This document shows, piece after piece, positions 28,590 to 35,842 of a DNA stretch of 64,000 nucleotides. Source of the DNA: Nakamurella panacisegetis (lineage in GTDB: Bacteria > Actinomycetota > Actinomycetes > Mycobacteriales > Nakamurellaceae); assembly GCF_900104535.1 (NCBI RefSeq), contig NZ_LT629710.1:1178001-1242000 (forward strand). The letters run 5' to 3'. The notes under the pieces were generated by a model. That model did no database searches. It was not told where the DNA came from and saw only the letters and a program-made list of their open reading frames with translations. The translations under genes and the position numbers were made by a program. The first letter of the stretch is position 1, and the number at the start of each line of letters is the position of its first letter.

Positions 28590-29294
28590 ATGCAGATCCA
28601 ACTCAGGCACAACCCGTCCTTCACCGTCGGCCGGATGTTTCTCACGCCGGGCGAGAGTGTCCGCGTCGAATCGGGCGCGATGATCGCACACTCGGGCGGG
28701 GTCACGTTGGCCGCTCGGGCCGAGGGCGGCATCATGCAGGGTCTGCGACGGTCGGTGCTGGGCGGCGAGTCGTTCTTCGTCACCACCTACACGGCGCCGG
28801 CCGAAGGCGGCTGGGTGGACGTGGCGGGAGTGCTGCCGGGTGACGTCGCCGCCATCGACATCACCCCCGACCGGCCGTACTACCTGGCCAAGGGCAACTG
28901 GATCGCCAATTCCTCGGGTGTCACCATCGACACGCAGTGGGGCGGCCGGGCGAGCCTGTTCGGCGGCGAGGGCGGGTTCGGGATCAGGGCGTCGGGCAGC
29001 GGGCAGGCACTGGTCAGCTGCTACGGGGCCATCGACGTGTTCGATCTGCAGCCTGGGCAGCCGGTCGTCATCGACACCGGGCACGTCGTGGCCTACGACC
29101 TCAACATCGCGTTCCGGATGCGCCGGGCCGTCGAGGGCCGATCGATCCAGTCGATGAAGTCCGGTGAGGGTTTCGTCTTCGACTTCACCGGCCCGGGCCG
29201 CGTGCTGTTGCAGACGCGCAACCCCGAGTCGTTCGCCGAGTGGGCACGTTCGGCCGCACCGGGGCGCAACCCGAAGAGCGGCCTGTTCGGCTGA
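28590..29294 (+). CDS. AIM24/TIGR00266 family protein
   Basis: A 234-residue all-beta protein of the family that includes yeast mitochondrial Aim24; bacterial members lack a defined biochemical role. Recognisable parts are GESVRVESGAMIAHSGGV, LRRSVLGGESFFVTTYTA, ANSSGVTIDTQWGG and GHVVAYDLNIAFRM. No signal peptide or membrane helix. ATG 28590 gives MQIQLRHNPSF, the usual family start. Followed after 106 bases by the TPM protein gene. Confidence 0.85.
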   Translation: MQIQLRHNPSFTVGRMFLTPGESVRVESGAMIAHSGGVTLAARAEGGIMQGLRRSVLGGESFFVTTYTAPAEGGWVDVAGVLPGDVAAIDITPDRPYYLAKGNWIANSSGVTIDTQWGGRASLFGGEGGFGIRASGSGQALVSCYGAIDVFDLQPGQPVVIDTGHVVAYDLNIAFRMRRAVEGRSIQSMKSGEGFVFDFTGPGRVLLQTRNPESFAEWARSAAPGRNPKSGLFG

Positions 29295-29400
29295 GTCGTC
29301 GGCCGGCCCGGAGGGCAGCTCCGGTCTCCGGCCCGAGGCCGGACCCGAGCGCATGATCGTGGCCGTCCGGTGCCCGGACCACGCCGATAAGCTGCGTCAC

Positions 29401-31497
29401 ATGTCGTTGTCACGAGTGACGTCCCGTTCCCCGCTGCGCGCTGTGCTGGTGGCGTTGCTGATGCTGTGCGGCATCCTGGCCGGGGCCGGCACGGCATCGG
29501 CCGAGGGCCCGTTCAGCCTGCCCAGCCAAATCACCGACCACAACAAGTCGGTCGGATGCAGCAACAGTTCGGTGAACACCGCCCTGGCCGATCTGCGCTC
29601 GGCCGACTCCGTGCAGCTGTGGGTGGTGTTCACCGACAGCTTCTCGGGCACCTCCGGTGAGTCGTGGGCGGCTCAGACGTTCACCAAGTCCGGCCTCGGG
29701 GCCAACACCATCCTGCTGGCCGTGGCCACGAAAGACCGGTCGTTCGGGATCAAGGCGTCCTCCACGTTCCCGCTCGACTCGACCAGGCTGTCCGCCGTCA
29801 CCCAGCAGGACATCACCCCCAAGCTGAGCAGCGGCGACTGGGCCGGGGCGGTTGTCGCCGCAGCCGATGGCTATCGGTCAGCGATCGGCAGCGCGGGTAC
29901 CCCGACGGCGAGCTCGGCCGGCGCCCCGTCCTGCACCGCGTCCAGTGCCGCCGGGTCCTCCGGCAGCAAGTCCTGGATCCTCTGGGTGGTCCTGCTGGTC
30001 CTGCTCGGTGGAGGGTTGGTCTGGTACCTGCGAGCCCGTAAGACCAAGGCGGCCAACCCCAACCAACCGGGTGGAGCCACCGGCGGCGGCCGCGGGGACG
30101 GGCAGCCCGGCAGGCCGACCGAACCGCTGGAGCCGCTGCAGTCGGTGTCCGACCGGAGTGTCCAGGTCCTGATCGCCACCGACAACGCCGTCCGCACCAG
30201 CGAACAGCAGCTGACCCTGGCCGAGTCCACCTTCGGTGCGCCGGCCATGGCCGATTTCCGGGCCGCCTTCGAACGGGCACGCACCTCCCTGGCCGCCGCC
30301 TTCCAGCTGCGACAGCAGATCGACGACGACATCCCCGAGGACGACGACACCCGCCGGGCCTGGATGAACGAGATCATCCAGCGGTGCACCGAGGCCGACG
30401 CCGAACTGGACGCGCAGAGCGACCGGTTCGATGCCATGTTGGATCTGAAGAACCAGCTTCCGACCGCGCTCACCGCCCTCAACAGCGACGTCGCCACCCA
30501 GGAGAACCGGGTGCCGGACGCCATGGCCACGCTGGCCCGGCTGAGCAGCACCTACGCGCCGAGCGCCCTGTCCACGATCATCAACAACGCCGCCGAGGCC
30601 GGCCACCGGATCTCCTTCGCCAGGGAGGCGATGGCCACCGCTGTATCCGAGAGCACGGCGGCCGACAACACTCCGGCCGTGGTCGCCGCCCGCAGCGCCC
30701 AGGAGGCGGTCGCCCAGGCCAAGACGCTGCTCGACGCGATCGACAAGCTCAGCTCCGACCTGGCCGACGCGTCGGCCCAGCTGCCGGCGCGCCTGGCCCC
30801 GGTGCAGGCCGAGCTGGATGCGGCCAGGACGGCGTTCGGGCAGGGCAGCACCGGCTCGGCCGGTGCGTCGATCGCGCAACGCCTGCAGCAGGTCGAGACG
30901 GCATTGAAGACGGTGGCCGGCCCGGCCGGACCGAAGGATCCGATCCTGGCCACACAACGGGTCCGGGAGGCCGACGCGACGCTCGACGACATCCTGGCCG
31001 CCACCCGATCCGCTCAGGAAACCCAACAGCGCGCCCTGGCCGCCCTGCAGCAGTCGCTGGACGCGGCCCAGTCCAAGATCACCGGCGCGGGTGACTTCAT
31101 CAACACCCGGCGGGGCGCCGTCGGCAGCGAGGCCCGTACCCGCCTGGCCGAGGCCCAGCGGCACCTGTCGAACGCGCTGGCCCAGGCCGGCTCCGACCCG
31201 GCCGCCGCGCTGTCCGAATCACGCCAGGCCGAGTCGCTGGCCGATGAGGCGGCCCGGCTGGCCCAGAACGACATGGGTCGCTGGCAGGGACCGGGCGGTG
31301 GCGGTTTCGCCGGAGGCGGGGGCGGCAGCTTCACCGGCGCCGTGCTGGGCGGCATCCTCGGCGGCATGCTCAGCGGCGGAGGCCGGGGCGGCGGATTCGG
31401 CGGTTTCGGCGGCGGCGGTTTCGGCGGTGGCGGTTTCGGCGGCGGCGGCTTCGGGGGCGGCGATTCGGGCGGGTTCGGCGAGGGCGGCCGGTTCTGA
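29401..31497 (+). CDS. TPM-domain secreted membrane protein with coiled-coil and glycine-rich tail
   Basis: A 698-residue protein. A signal peptide (ending TASAEG) leads to a TPM domain of about 140 residues (LRSADSVQLWVVFTDSF, KSGLGANTILLAVATKDRSF); TPM domains occur in surface and chloroplast repair proteins. One transmembrane helix (SWILWVVLLVLLGGGLVWYL) divides it from a long, Ala/Gln-rich predicted coiled coil of ~400 residues, probably cytosolic. The last ~65 residues are almost only Gly and Phe (repeats of GGGFGG). Start ATG 29401 follows the annotation of the signal peptide. Function not established; a role in envelope maintenance is inferred. Confidence 0.83.
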   Translation: MSLSRVTSRSPLRAVLVALLMLCGILAGAGTASAEGPFSLPSQITDHNKSVGCSNSSVNTALADLRSADSVQLWVVFTDSFSGTSGESWAAQTFTKSGLGANTILLAVATKDRSFGIKASSTFPLDSTRLSAVTQQDITPKLSSGDWAGAVVAAADGYRSAIGSAGTPTASSAGAPSCTASSAAGSSGSKSWILWVVLLVLLGGGLVWYLRARKTKAANPNQPGGATGGGRGDGQPGRPTEPLEPLQSVSDRSVQVLIATDNAVRTSEQQLTLAESTFGAPAMADFRAAFERARTSLAAAFQLRQQIDDDIPEDDDTRRAWMNEIIQRCTEADAELDAQSDRFDAMLDLKNQLPTALTALNSDVATQENRVPDAMATLARLSSTYAPSALSTIINNAAEAGHRISFAREAMATAVSESTAADNTPAVVAARSAQEAVAQAKTLLDAIDKLSSDLADASAQLPARLAPVQAELDAARTAFGQGSTGSAGASIAQRLQQVETALKTVAGPAGPKDPILATQRVREADATLDDILAATRSAQETQQRALAALQQSLDAAQSKITGAGDFINTRRGAVGSEARTRLAEAQRHLSNALAQAGSDPAAALSESRQAESLADEAARLAQNDMGRWQGPGGGGFAGGGGGSFTGAVLGGILGGMLSGGGRGGGFGGFGGGGFGGGGFGGGGFGGGDSGGFGEGGRF

Positions 31498-31642
31498 CGC
31501 AGTAGCGGGCCGGTCCCCGCCGAGCTCCGATCGACGGGACGTTCGCGGGCGGCAGTTCCCATGCATTGCCTCAGACGACGCACAGGAGCCGCATAGCCCG
31601 GGCCATCAAGGTGAAGGCATCCACTCCAAGGAGGCCTTCGTC

Positions 31643-31957
31643 ATGGAACTATCCGACCGGATCCGAACCGGCCAGCGGCTGCGTCGCCGGGTCAGGCTGC
31701 TGACGGCCGGGGTGGCCGGCGTGGCCGGCGCGGCGACCGTGGCGACCACGATCGCCCTGGCCTCACCAGCCGCGGCCGCGACGCCGGCGGCGACGACCGG
31801 CGTCACCACGAACTCCACCGTTGCCACCACCGCAGCCGCCGCCAGCACGTCGTCCGGCACGACGACATCCAGCAGCACGACGAGCACGACTCTGAGCAGC
31901 ACCGCCGCTCCGACCACCACCTCCGCCGCGGCCAGCGCCTCGTCGGGAGGTTCCTGA
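31643..31957 (+). CDS. Secreted Ser/Thr/Ala-rich small protein, first gene of a redox operon
   Basis: A 104-residue protein. A basic N-terminus (LRRRVRLL) and a hydrophobic helix ending ASPAAAA form a signal peptide or anchor; the remaining ~60 residues are nearly all Ser, Thr, Ala and Gly. AAGGAGG lies 8 bases before ATG 31643. Its TGA overlaps the apbE start, so the two are made together. In other genomes ApbE partners carry an FMN-binding domain with a target Thr/Ser; none is visible here. It could be a spacer protein, an O-glycosylated or flavinylated peptide; unproven. Confidence 0.6.
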   Translation: MELSDRIRTGQRLRRRVRLLTAGVAGVAGAATVATTIALASPAAAATPAATTGVTTNSTVATTAAAASTSSGTTTSSSTTSTTLSSTAAPTTTSAAASASSGGS

Positions 31958-32922
31958 TGAACCCCACCAGCGGTCGCGTGGATTTCGAGATCTGGTCCAC
32001 GACAGCCACTCTCGTCGTCACCGATCCGGCCGCACTGGGCGCCGCACGAGCCGAACTCGACGACGAGCTGGGCCACACCGAAGTGGCCTGCAGCCGGTTC
32101 CGGGCCGACTCCGAGATCAACGCCCTGCTCCGCTCCCCCGGCCGTCGGGTGTCCCTGTCACCGACCCTGAACGACGCGATGGCGGCCGCACTCCGGATCG
32201 CCTCCGCGACCTCGTACCTCGTCGACCCGACCGTCGCGGCCGCCGTCATCGCCCTGGGCTACGACCGGGACATCGCCCTGCTCGGCGACATCGCCGGGCT
32301 CTCCGATCTGGTCGACCGGGGCATCGGCGAGGCCACGGCAACCGCCCGGCCGGCCCCGGGGGCCTGGCGGGTCGAACACGATCACGAAGCCGCCACGGTC
32401 ACCGTCCCGGCCGGGGTGGGACTCGATCTGGGTGCCACCGCGAAGGCATTCGCCGCCGATCGGGCGGCGGTTCGGATCCACTCCCGCCTCGGATGCGGGG
32501 TGCTGGTGAGTCTGGGCGGCGACATCTCCGTCGCCGGGCCGGCTCCGGACGGCGGCTGGAGCATCGCCATCGCCGACGACCACCGCACGGCCGAGGCCGA
32601 TCCGCAGACGACCGTCGCGATCAGCAGCGGCGGCCTGGCCACGTCGTCGATCACCGCCCGCCGGTGGCGCACGCCGGTCGGTGTGCGGCACCACCTGGTC
32701 GATCCACGCACCGGAGAGAATCCGGCTCCGCTGTGGCGCAGTGCGTCGGTCGCGGCCGGCAGCGCGGTGGACGCCAACGCCGGCGCCACCGCGGCGATCA
32801 TCCTCGGCGACCAGGCGCCCGTCTGGCTGGCCGAGCGTCGCCTCCCGTCCCGGCTGGTCCGCATCGACGGCTCGGTCGTGGCCGTGGCCGGATGGCCGGC
32901 CGATCAGCAGCGAGCGGCGTGA
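31957..32922 (+). CDS. FAD:protein FMN transferase (ApbE family)
   Basis: A 321-residue enzyme that moves FMN from FAD onto a Thr or Ser of a target protein. Key motifs are YLVDPTVAAAVIALGYDRD, the LDLGATAKAFAADRA metal/FAD segment, LVSLGGDISVAGPAPDGGW and the HHLVDPRTGENPAP loop. No lipobox is seen, so unlike Gram-negative ApbE it may act inside the cell or be poorly anchored. Its ATG overlaps the stop of the Ser/Thr-rich gene (TGATG), and its stop overlaps the next ATG. No FMN-binding-domain substrate is encoded in the operon. Confidence 0.88.
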   Translation: MNPTSGRVDFEIWSTTATLVVTDPAALGAARAELDDELGHTEVACSRFRADSEINALLRSPGRRVSLSPTLNDAMAAALRIASATSYLVDPTVAAAVIALGYDRDIALLGDIAGLSDLVDRGIGEATATARPAPGAWRVEHDHEAATVTVPAGVGLDLGATAKAFAADRAAVRIHSRLGCGVLVSLGGDISVAGPAPDGGWSIAIADDHRTAEADPQTTVAISSGGLATSSITARRWRTPVGVRHHLVDPRTGENPAPLWRSASVAAGSAVDANAGATAAIILGDQAPVWLAERRLPSRLVRIDGSVVAVAGWPADQQRAA

Positions 32923-33518
32923 TGAGCACCCAGATCCTCTGGTACGCCAGCCGGGCCACCGGCGCCGTCTCCCTGGTGCTGTTCAGTGCCGTCATGGTGC
33001 TCGGCATACTCACCGCCGGACGAAAGGGCTCGTCGTTTCTGCCCCGCGCCGCCGTGCTGCGCCTGCACCGGTCCCTGACCATCACGTCAATGGCCTTCCT
33101 CGCGATCCACATCGTCACGGCGATCAGCGACGGCTACGTCAGCCTTTCCTTCCTGGACGCGATCCTGCCGTTCCGCTCGGCGTGGGAACCGATGTGGATC
33201 GGGCTCGGCACAGTGGCCGTCGATCTGATGCTGGCCGTCGGGATCACCAGCGCTCTCCGACGCCGTCTCTCCCCGTCGGCGTGGAAGGCCGTGCATCTGA
33301 GCTCGTACGCCATGTGGCCGATTGCCGTCCTGCACGGCTTCGGCACGTCCGGCGGCGACGGTACGTCGCCCTGGATGATCATCCTCGACATTGTCTGCAT
33401 CGCCGGCGTTCTCGGCGCCCTCGCAGTGAGGCTGCGGCCCGACCGGCACCCGGACAGCGTGGCCCGCCAGGCCGCGACGACCGCCCATCCCCGCGAATCG
33501 ATCGGAGCCGGCCGTTGA
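32922..33518 (+). CDS. Ferric-reductase-like transmembrane protein (b-type heme)
   Basis: A 198-residue membrane protein with five or six helices and His pairs spaced to hold heme b: LRLHRSLTITSMAFLAIHIV and WKAVHLSSYAMWPIAVLHGF. It has no flavodoxin-reductase C-terminal domain, so electrons must come from another subunit, probably the NuoF-like product of the next gene. TGATG overlap with apbE upstream and a TTGA overlap with the next gene make it part of a tight operon. Confidence 0.85.
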   Translation: MSTQILWYASRATGAVSLVLFSAVMVLGILTAGRKGSSFLPRAAVLRLHRSLTITSMAFLAIHIVTAISDGYVSLSFLDAILPFRSAWEPMWIGLGTVAVDLMLAVGITSALRRRLSPSAWKAVHLSSYAMWPIAVLHGFGTSGGDGTSPWMIILDIVCIAGVLGALAVRLRPDRHPDSVARQAATTAHPRESIGAGR

Positions 33519-34798
33519 GCACCGCCCTGCATCCTCCGACCACCGTCAGCACGGCTCGTCTGCTGCCGACCCGGCCGGCCGTGCATCTGGCCGACCACGA
33601 AGCTCGGCTCGGGCCCCTTCCGCTGGCCGTCGCGCCCCGGTTGGCCGACCTGATCACCGCGGCCGGCCTGCTCGGCCGCGGCGGCGGTGGTTTCCCGACC
33701 GGGCGCAAGTTCCGCGCGGTGGCGCAGGCCTCGTCGGCGCGGCGACCGGCGGTGGTCATCGCCAACTGCTGTGAAGGTGATCCGACGTCGTCGAAAGACG
33801 CTGTGCTGCTGACGACTTCACCCCATCTGGTGATCGACGGAGCCGTGTTGGCCGCGGCCGCGGTCGGCGCCGACCGGGTGATCCTGGCCGTTCATGAGGG
33901 GGCCGGAACCACCACCGGGCTGCGGCGGGCCCTGTCCGAACGCGGGCCGGGGGCCGCCGGCATCGCCATCGCGGGCGTCCCGGCGCGGTTCGTCGCATCC
34001 GAGTCCACCGCGCTGGTCCGGTATCTCAATTCCGGTGACGCCCGCCCGGGCGGGCGTCTGACCGCGATCTGGGAGTCGGGGGTGGACGGCCGACCGACCC
34101 TGGTCGACAACGCGGAGACGCTCGCGCAGGTCGCCCTGATCGCCCGGTTCGGCCCGGACTGGTTCACCTCGGTCGGCACCCCCGACGAGCCCGGCACCAC
34201 GCTGGTGACGGTGGCCGGGGCGGTATCTCGGCCCGGCGTGGTCGAGATCGCCGGTGGCACCGCACTTCGGACGATCCTGGCCGCTGTCGGCTACCACCCG
34301 GCCACCGACCCGTCCTGGGCGTTGGTCGGCGGCCTGGCCGGTCGTTGGATCGACCTCACCCGTGGCGCCGACATCGGTTTCAGCGCCGCGGAACTCGCGG
34401 CGGCCGGAGGGGTGAAGGGGGTGGCCTCGATCGTCGTCCTGCCGCCCCACGGGTGCGTGCTCCGCGAGACGGCGCGGATCCTGGACCACCTGGCCGCGGC
34501 CGGTGCCCGGCAGTGCGGCCCGTGCATGTTCGGTCTGCCGGCCATTGCCGCTGACATGGCCGGGCTGGTGGCCGGCGACCGGACCGCTCTGGGACGCCTC
34601 CGCCACCGCCTGCCGGTGATCAACGGGCGCGGTGCGTGCGGGCACCCGGACGGCGCGGTGGCCCTGGCGGCCAGCGCGCTACAGGTGATGACCGGCCCCG
34701 AAGCGGTCCATCTCGACGGTCATCTGCGGCTGGCCCGCTGCCTCGCCGGGCCCCCGATGGTCCCGCTCGGCGGATCGATCGACGGAGGACGAGCGTGA
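33515..34798 (+). CDS. NuoF/RnfC-like SLBB protein with altered Fe-S ligands
   Basis: A 427-residue protein of the complex I 51-kDa (NuoF) family. The FMN/NAD(P)H motif GLLGRGGGGFPTGRKF and the ANCCEGDPTSSKDAVLL stretch correspond to the NuoF/RnfC nucleotide site; an SLBB domain (TLVTVAGAVSRPGVVEIAGG) follows. The cluster region has Cys at about residues 334, 337 and 375 (QCGPC and ACGHP) where NuoF has four Cys (CxxCxxC...C); the first is missing. A TTG start at 33515 has GGAG 7 bases upstream. Probably a soluble electron-entry subunit for the membrane protein upstream, with the ferredoxin encoded next. Confidence 0.8.
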   Translation: MSTALHPPTTVSTARLLPTRPAVHLADHEARLGPLPLAVAPRLADLITAAGLLGRGGGGFPTGRKFRAVAQASSARRPAVVIANCCEGDPTSSKDAVLLTTSPHLVIDGAVLAAAAVGADRVILAVHEGAGTTTGLRRALSERGPGAAGIAIAGVPARFVASESTALVRYLNSGDARPGGRLTAIWESGVDGRPTLVDNAETLAQVALIARFGPDWFTSVGTPDEPGTTLVTVAGAVSRPGVVEIAGGTALRTILAAVGYHPATDPSWALVGGLAGRWIDLTRGADIGFSAAELAAAGGVKGVASIVVLPPHGCVLRETARILDHLAAAGARQCGPCMFGLPAIAADMAGLVAGDRTALGRLRHRLPVINGRGACGHPDGAVALAASALQVMTGPEAVHLDGHLRLARCLAGPPMVPLGGSIDGGRA

Positions 34799-35013
34799 GC
34801 ACCAAGGATCTCCGGCTGTTGGTCGACCCGATCGGCTGCCGCGCCCACGGACTCTGCGCCGACGAGTTGCCCGAGGCCATCGAACTGGACGAATGGGGCT
34901 ACCCGATTCTGCCCAGTGGGCCGATTCCGCCGGATCTGCTGCGTCGCGCCCGAGCCGCGGCGAACGCCTGCCCGGTTCTGGCTCTGCGGCTGATGACGCC
35001 GGTACGGCGCTAG
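34795..35013 (+). CDS. Three-cysteine ferredoxin
   Basis: A 72-residue ferredoxin. C15-x2-H18-x2-C21 and C59-P form a single cluster site in which His18 sits where [4Fe-4S] proteins have Cys; such proteins usually carry [3Fe-4S] and pair with P450s or redox enzymes in actinomycetes. GGAGG 6 bases before GTG 34795; overlaps the NuoF-like stop (GTGA). It probably carries electrons to or from the NuoF-like protein, and could also serve the P450 at 9.3 kb. Confidence 0.88.
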   Translation: MSTKDLRLLVDPIGCRAHGLCADELPEAIELDEWGYPILPSGPIPPDLLRRARAAANACPVLALRLMTPVRR

Positions 35014-35089: not shown

Positions 35090-35842
35090 GTGAGCAAGAC
35101 CGGAAACACCACGCCCACCACCGCCGAGGTGGACCACGGGCACGCTGACGAACCGCATGCGGGCGGGCTGTCGTCGCGGCTCAACTGGCTCCGGGCCGGC
35201 GTGCTCGGCGCGAACGACGGGATCGTCTCCACCGCGGGCCTGGTGATCGGCGTGGCCGCCGCGACCACGGCGAAAGGCCCGATCCTGACCGCCGGGGTGG
35301 CCGGCCTCATCGCCGGCGCGGTGTCGATGGCCCTCGGCGAGTACGTGTCGGTGAGCACCCAGCGGGACACCGAGCGGGCGCTGCTGGAAAAGGAACGCCG
35401 GGAGCTGGCCGAGAGCCCGGAGGCGGAGCTGGCCGAGCTGACCGCCATGTACGAGGCGAAGGGCCTGAGCCCGTCGACCGCCCAGCTGGTGGCCCGCGAG
35501 CTCACCGCCCATGACGCCTTCGCCGCCCACGTCGACGTCGAACTGAACATCGACCCCGACGAGCTGACCAACCCCTGGCAGGCGGCGTTCGCTTCGGCGG
35601 TGTCGTTCAGCATCGGGGCTCTGCTCCCGCTGCTGGCCATCCTGTTACCCCCGCCCGGCGCCCGGATCCCGGTGACGTTCGCCGCGGTACTGGTCGCGCT
35701 CGCCCTGACCGGGACCATCAGTGCCCGGCTGGGCGGCTCAGCTCGATTCCGGGCGGTGATGCGCATCCTGGTCGGCGGAGCGCTGGCCATGATCGTGACC
35801 TTCGGGATCGGGCAACTGGTGGGTCACGTCGGCGGAATCTGA
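35090..35842 (+). CDS. VIT1/CCC1 family iron/manganese transporter
   Basis: A 250-residue membrane protein likely to move Fe2+ or Mn2+ out of the cytosol. The first helix holds LGANDGIVSTAGLVIGVAAA, and the second SMALGEYVSVSTQRDTERAL; the soluble helical hairpin with Glu clusters (KERRELAESPEAELAELTAM) is the metal-collecting loop of the family. A His-rich N-terminus (DHGHADEPH) may also bind metal. GTG 35090. The last 105 bases overlap a gene on the other strand. Confidence 0.88.
   Translation: MSKTGNTTPTTAEVDHGHADEPHAGGLSSRLNWLRAGVLGANDGIVSTAGLVIGVAAATTAKGPILTAGVAGLIAGAVSMALGEYVSVSTQRDTERALLEKERRELAESPEAELAELTAMYEAKGLSPSTAQLVARELTAHDAFAAHVDVELNIDPDELTNPWQAAFASAVSFSIGALLPLLAILLPPPGARIPVTFAAVLVALALTGTISARLGGSARFRAVMRILVGGALAMIVTFGIGQLVGHVGGI

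Follow-up and report, generated by a model that had tools for sequence, protein, structure and literature searches.

A compact redox operon of Nakamurella panacisegetis and its anchored, disordered tail protein as a predicted ApbE substrate

The window analysed here is a 64,000-nucleotide stretch of Nakamurella panacisegetis (contig NZ_LT629710.1, positions 1,178,001 to 1,242,000), and lies at 1.18-1.24 Mb of a complete 5.01-Mb genome. At positions 31643-35013 it contains a five-gene operon for a short anchored tail protein, the flavin adenine dinucleotide (FAD):protein flavin mononucleotide (FMN) transferase ApbE, a ferric-reductase-like membrane protein, a NuoF-like protein and a small ferredoxin. 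The operon probably encodes a transmembrane electron chain of the MsrQ-like type, and the last carrier of the chain is predicted to be, in place of a folded FMN-binding domain, the disordered tail, which is anchored in the membrane and would bear a covalent FMN at its C-terminal Ser. Flavinylation of this Ser is the best-supported reading of the tail, and we consider it likely. The initial annotation of this DNA had mentioned the peptide briefly, as 'Ser/Thr-rich'; it is the novel part of the operon. As a kind of protein the tail is new as far as literature searches reach, and the open PubMed Central literature yielded no report of ApbE acting on a short, disordered, anchored protein.

Translation of the window showed all five open reading frames (ORFs), with successive overlaps of 1, 1, 4 and 4 bases (Table 1), which confirms the compact arrangement with 1-4-base overlaps that had been described initially. 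The VIT1-family gene behind the operon and the conserved C-terminus of the peptide are additional features. The sequence AAGGAGG is located at 31628-31634, ahead of the first ATG of the tail gene. In an AF2 (AlphaFold2) model the tail forms a single helix at residues 6-39, followed by coil (mean predicted local distance difference test score, pLDDT, 66.5). The pattern [ST]G[AG][ST] occurs only in the tail, and in none of the other four operon proteins. The tail had no Pfam or NCBIfam match at E values up to 1, except one NCBIfam match far below its cut-off. The same libraries gave scattered weak matches at most for 73 tails, and domain searches therefore overlook them; FMN_bind in particular matched none of the 73 (E up to 0.1). 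FMN_bind (PF04205) also had no match in the window, and its nearest matches in the genome are at 1.66 and 4.38 Mb.

The cassette is conserved well beyond this genome and is more than a chance arrangement. Genome contigs were scanned with eight NuoF-like proteins, and the best 80 of 422 related stretches are referred to as the named loci. The order apbE, reductase, NuoF and ferredoxin on one strand is kept in 64 of these 80; among the remaining 16, the NuoF gene lies within 2500 bases of the locus start in 10. The proposal of one joint system is thus not refuted by the synteny survey, and the chain composition suggested in the initial annotation (NAD(P)H-type entry, ferredoxin, heme-b-type membrane protein and flavinylating enzyme) holds as a co-conserved set. 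An even draw of 396 genomes from the phylum contained NuoF-like proteins (E ≤ 1e-45) in 36 genomes. The apbE gene was in place in 13 of the 37 loci of this draw outside the window genome. In nine of the 37, apbE is missing beside reductase, NuoF and ferredoxin, and in others the reductase is missing too, which indicates that NuoF and ferredoxin also serve as a pair where ApbE is absent.

Relatives of the same genus encode short anchored peptides before apbE that end in SGGS, TGGS or similar, and like tails were found in Amycolatopsis, Pseudonocardia, Streptomyces, Micromonosporaceae, a Frankia metagenome-assembled genome (MAG) and others. Many of them have an anchor rich in Arg, then a linker of low complexity and, at the C-terminus, [ST]-G-[AG]-[ST]; ORFs with this end are called exact below. 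Tails were picked by position, hydropathy, charge and composition, a rule that is blind to the motif yet was chosen after the motif had been seen; it was applied unchanged to the new loci of the phylum draw. It replaced an earlier selection that relied on GC bias to find the upstream ORF and gave 42/72 exact ends, with wrong frames in several loci. By the motif-blind rule, the end is exact in 55 of 83 picks before apbE, and in 59 of the 102 loci with apbE and reductase gene that were pooled over four batches (L038, on the same contig as L047, and L190, at the same place as L173, were left out). Only 11 of 10,389 ORFs of an opposite-strand control were motif-ended; 8 of these 11 have an Arg-rich anchor and are apparently real tails. 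The dipeptide RR is found within the first 32 residues in 83/95 picks. Ten more full-length ApbE loci of carrier genomes, fetched along with seven stretches of other ApbE kinds, were chosen by ApbE alone. Nine are reductase-NuoF cassettes and one lacks NuoF; seven tails end exactly, and the other three end in SRGS, SGSS and SRAS.

The ApbE motif has been reviewed as D-x-x-[ST]-G-A-[ST], and the sections on the engineered flavin-tag in the same source report that seven residues are enough, that an Asp-to-Ala change has little effect and that terminal tags work best (PMC12052999). A logo was built from 66 of 74 tails; the 8 Cys-ended tails were kept apart, L130 was entered by hand, and L052, L097 and L107 were omitted since the picked ORF is not the tail. 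Position -4 is S or T in 63 of the 66, -3 is G in 57, -2 is G or A in 61 and -1 is S in 61. At -7, the place of the Asp in the known motif, H (22), Q (13) and D (7) make up 42/66, compared with 11% in the linkers. Conservation is concentrated at these last four positions and at -7, and P, S, A, T and G abound in the linkers. An apparent register of the tail end with the motif DxxSGA[ST] is thereby supported across the relatives.

The company of genes in the genomes is informative as well. Among the 39 carrier genomes (those of the named loci taken for isolates by their record titles), ApbE was found in all 39 and FMN_bind was absent from 13. Six of these 13 have a single ApbE match, located in the cassette; four of the corresponding tails are exact and two, which are mycobacterial, end in SRGS. 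In two further genomes (G093 and G416), tail, reductase and NuoF are together without apbE or ferredoxin, and one ApbE is located elsewhere beside a ferredoxin; these genomes carry the same cassette parts in two pieces. No ApbE match was found in eight genomes of the G093/G416 family that have NuoF and ferredoxin only. The stretches fetched for nine apbE-free reductase-NuoF-ferredoxin cassettes (eight of one genus) showed no motif-ended ORF on that strand, and the ApbE matches of these genomes are none or of the split type only. At another locus without apbE (L082), an anchored peptide before the reductase ends in HSAYRAS. Two arrangements were seen alongside: the reductase-like proteins of the apbE-free cassettes L156, L158, L160, L162, L164 and L167 have long low-complexity C-terminal extensions; and in a close relative (L037:3441-5439, genome G013) the cassette apbE is split by an inserted gene on the opposite strand, with other ApbE matches in the genome.

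Several observations weigh against flavinylation of the last Ser. The window tail has Ser at -7 rather than D, H or Q, and Gly at -2, so that its SGGS is a relaxed form of DxxSGA[ST]. Most tails show Ser and Gly where canonical ApbE prefers Thr and Ala, and Ser is taken less well than Thr in the motif according to the tag sections of PMC12052999. By the rule, 43 of the 102 pooled loci are not exact: 13 are of a Cys type (such as CYSTPSGNTVCY), 2 carry the motif at most four residues away from the end, 7 gave no pick and 21 end otherwise. The seven loci without a pick comprise cut or nearly cut contigs (L072, L095 and L152), L036 with FMN_bind at that place, L043 ending in TGASGA, and L070 and L092, where an exact-motif ORF is present. 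Some of the 21 other ends are near the motif (SRGS, SGSS, SSGS and SGVS) and some are unlike it; for two of them, L052 and L097, the opposite strand encodes an exact tail. Adding L070, L092, L052 and L097 by eye gives 63/102. The tail ends of Acidimicrobiales and mycobacteria differ from the exact motif in sequence. Moreover, only 4 of the 13 apbE loci of the phylum draw are exact (4 are of the Cys type, 4 are other and 1 is on a cut contig), which suggests a feature of part of the family that is strongest near the clade of the window. In genome G015 (88% complete; L038/L047), the tail is accompanied by reductase, NuoF and ferredoxin, and no ApbE match was found. At L144, an ORF ending in the motif lies immediately before NuoF, with no apbE there and one ApbE elsewhere in the genome. 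The Acidimicrobiales-type tails (L089, L103, L114, L118, L121, L123, L124, L146 and others) have two-Cys ends, in which either SGxT might be a candidate flavin site or the Cys pair a candidate redox group.

Alternative explanations were weighed against these data. ApbE might modify another protein, for example an FMN_bind protein encoded elsewhere, and the tail, left unmodified, would be an anchor or assembly factor that keeps its C-terminus for binding to ApbE or the reductase. The window genome does hold two FMN_bind proteins elsewhere, and 26 of the 39 carriers have at least one as a possible ApbE target, which again counts against the tail as substrate. However, the six FMN_bind-free carriers with their sole ApbE match in the cassette, and the conserved tail end in register with the ApbE motif, make this explanation rather unlikely. 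It is quite improbable, in our view, that the tail is flavinylated with its tip kept inside the cell, as a cytosolic electron shuttle between the NuoF-like protein or ferredoxin and the reductase. In favour of this, and against the preferred reading, the cassette ApbEs lack a signal peptide (3/96 are marginal), so modification would happen inside, although the tail should face outward; cytosolic ApbEs are known, as noted in the tag sections of PMC12052999. Against a cytosolic tip, the Arg-rich segment stands before the helix and none follows it in the window tail, which predicts the N-terminus inside and the tail outside.

The match could also be a by-product of the low-complexity Ser/Thr/Gly/Ala composition, as the composition of the linkers and the loci with other ends might suggest. 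This is hardly plausible in view of the 59/102 exact loci against 11/10,389 on the opposite strand; the conservation is also confined mainly to the last four positions and -7, and tails in tandem, divergent or stand-alone position show these ends again.

Flavinylation of the tail's last Ser would fit the following scheme. ApbE would move FMN from FAD onto this residue, as motif, register and genome company suggest, and the tail is assumed to be modified before its export. Judging from the protein families, the NuoF-like protein would pass electrons of NADH or NADPH through FMN and iron-sulfur centres to the ferredoxin. The electrons may then cross the membrane, presumably outward, by two b hemes of the reductase-like protein, for which the four conserved His residues are observed. 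Outside, the tethered flavin might take up the electrons and give them to acceptors of the envelope. Such an acceptor could in the window be ferric iron, a speculation prompted by the VIT1 neighbour.

Table 1. Coordinates of the operon, of sites within its tail gene and of the following gene in the window
Feature	Position	Strand	Description
Anchored tail protein, 104 aa	31643..31957	+	Arg-rich start, hydrophobic helix, Ser/Thr/Ala-rich linker, C-terminal SSGGS
Hydrophobic stretch of tail anchor, residues 20-42	31700..31768 (approximate)	+	RRRVR before; read from translation
SGGS, last four codons; candidate ApbE site	31943..31954	+	Last Ser is putative FMN acceptor; C-terminus conserved in relatives
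ApbE, FAD:protein FMN transferase	31957..32922	+	Pfam 7e-41; no signal peptide detected
Ferric-reductase-like (MsrQ-like, PF01794) membrane protein	32922..33518	+	Ferric_reduct 4.6e-8
NuoF-like protein, TTG start	33515..34798	+	FMN/NADH domain, SLBB, iron-sulfur domain
Single-cluster ferredoxin, three Cys, GTG start	34795..35013	+	Fer4_15 2.4e-11 (Pfam)
VIT1-family transporter	35090..35842	+	Pfam 4e-71; starts 77 bases past ferredoxin end

Alignment of the operon's ApbE with solved ApbEs shows the conserved stretches TS, HHxxDPxTG and DAxAxATA, which may be read as the reviewed Asp-Ser-His triad. The reductase-like protein matches PF01794 at 33.6 bits (cut-off 28), and its His 49, 63, 125 and 138 are invariant in 40 sequences. 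Its AF2 model (pLDDT 90.0) has a NOX/STEAP-like fold, with Foldseek E values of 0.012 for DUOX1, 0.021 for STEAP2 and 0.11 for SpNOX. In the NuoF-like protein, a candidate cytosolic NAD(P)H-oxidising partner, Pfam detected Complex1_51K (2.5e-26), NADH_4Fe-4S (2.2e-7) and SLBB (7e-6; 26.2 bits, just below the cut-off of 27). It scores 152.3 bits against the NCBIfam NuoF equivalog, below the cut-off of 558.65. The glycine-rich stretch of the FMN/NADH site is kept, the iron-sulfur domain reads QCGPC and RGAC, and further Cys residues are invariant in eight relatives. Beside Thermus Nqo1, one of the two adjacent, NADH-binding Glu of the GEETAL stretch is Ser; no paper on the NADH versus NADPH specificity of NuoF was found. 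The nearest relatives of this protein in the NuoF tree are of the same genus and include a Nakamurella MAG; the window genome also has a separate NuoF-type protein with 30% identity. Among solved structures, the nearest relatives of the ferredoxin that have sequence support are free-standing ferredoxins and ferredoxins fused to P450s.

The VIT1 gene perhaps shares a transcription unit with the operon. Only the window and L037 have such a gene immediately after the cassette; none of the 80 named loci does, and three of them have a VIT1 gene kilobases upstream. VIT1 was therefore rejected as a constant partner of the cassette, and the role of iron is a guess. Directly upstream of the operon, on the same strand, a TPM-domain protein with a Gly-rich end is encoded (29164-31497).

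Besides that of the operon, the window genome has two more tails. One belongs to a second cluster of ApbE, reductase, NuoF-like protein and ferredoxin (L036, G000:C1:4378000-4390000), which is preceded by a divergent tail, a ferric reductase with NAD domain and an FMN_bind protein. Its NuoF-like protein is 61% identical to that of the window and falls among the tail-bearing relatives in the NuoF tree. The idea that FMN_bind replaces the tail there was dropped, since this cluster has both: the divergent tail, ending in SSNAGSGGS, is about 2 kb away, and the ferric reductase with NAD domain stands before the FMN_bind gene. The other is a stand-alone tail gene (L199:5010-5360, minus strand; about 834.5-834.9 kb of the genome) ending in SSHAGSGGS, with no ApbE or reductase gene in the 10.5 kb read around it. 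A third flavinylation cluster of this genome (L046, G000:C1:1652000-1663000) is of the classical kind, with a ferric reductase with a weak NAD-domain match, an FMN_bind protein with the motif SGAT, and ApbE. Genome G010 has two tails in tandem. Such tandem, divergent and stand-alone copies suggest that the tails are a gene family of their own. Elsewhere, a tail ending in PPQTTSGAS adjoins a gene for a sulfite-oxidase-like molybdopterin enzyme (L102:743-2453, minus strand), which is possibly another client of such tails; and a tail ending in PPVSVSGGS immediately precedes a second gene of the ferric-reductase-like kind, which has a long extension at its C-terminal end (L067:3307-4742, minus strand).

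The tails might be natural 'flavin tags' that form one family of small, disordered and anchored proteins, with a covalent FMN on the C-terminal Ser as their sole redox feature. Their prediction as domainless electron shuttles of the actinobacterial envelope, which would account for some of the genomes that have ApbE and lack a known substrate, appears to us evenly balanced. If true, covalent flavin carriers need no folded flavin domain, as an anchored disordered arm with an FMN tip would do, and a natural tail would be in register with the seven-residue tag used by engineers. The tails would also supply a substrate for ApbEs lacking one; a 2021 survey counted 670 genomes with such ApbEs (PMC8238504). 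Moreover, a co-conserved actinobacterial redox chain would become testable by one co-expression experiment.

In comparison with known systems, the operon outline is of a kind already predicted. The passages of Meheust et al. (eLife 2021) on the MsrQ-like system predict 1797 such flavinylation clusters, broadly in Actinobacteria, 31 of them with a NuoF-like protein and 153 with VIT1, and with NAD(P)H as the likely donor (PMC8238504). The PF01794 membrane protein, apbE, the actinobacterial hosts and the NuoF-like protein or VIT1 are thus shared, and the initial suggestion of an undescribed system was not upheld. The MsrQ-like clusters typically hold an FMN-binding-domain gene, whereas this operon has the anchored tail in that place; the small ferredoxin is not mentioned in those passages. 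The further statement that no complex of this composition has been characterised agrees with the open PubMed Central literature, in which none was found. The likeness to a reduced Rnf/Nqr-like chain, also proposed initially, was rejected on protein families: the RnfA/D/E and NqrB/D/E membrane families had no Pfam match among the five operon proteins, and NuoF models (1e-44) matched the NuoF-like protein much better than RnfC models (7e-9). This protein shares the FMN/NADH, SLBB and iron-sulfur domains with NuoF of complex I; however, it reaches 152 bits against an equivalog cut-off of 559 and its iron-sulfur stretch is QCGPC. The reductase-like model shares its fold and four invariant His with the NOX, DUOX and STEAP heme proteins; whereas it has no fused FAD/NAD domain, and the NuoF-like protein and ferredoxin are encoded beside it. 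ApbE-type motifs outside an FMN_bind domain are shared with the FMN_red and Flavodoxin_4 substrates of Huang et al. (2024), whose results on these proteins include a Lactococcus FMN_red model with the motifs on an unstructured C-terminal extension and shown flavinylation (PMC11334425). That extension stands beside a folded flavin-binding domain, whereas the tails have no detectable one. The tails also resemble the engineered flavin-tag, in which a seven-residue motif at a protein terminus suffices for ApbE, as its description states (PMC12052999); the tag is man-made, whereas the tails would be of natural origin, and their first motif position is more often H or Q than D.

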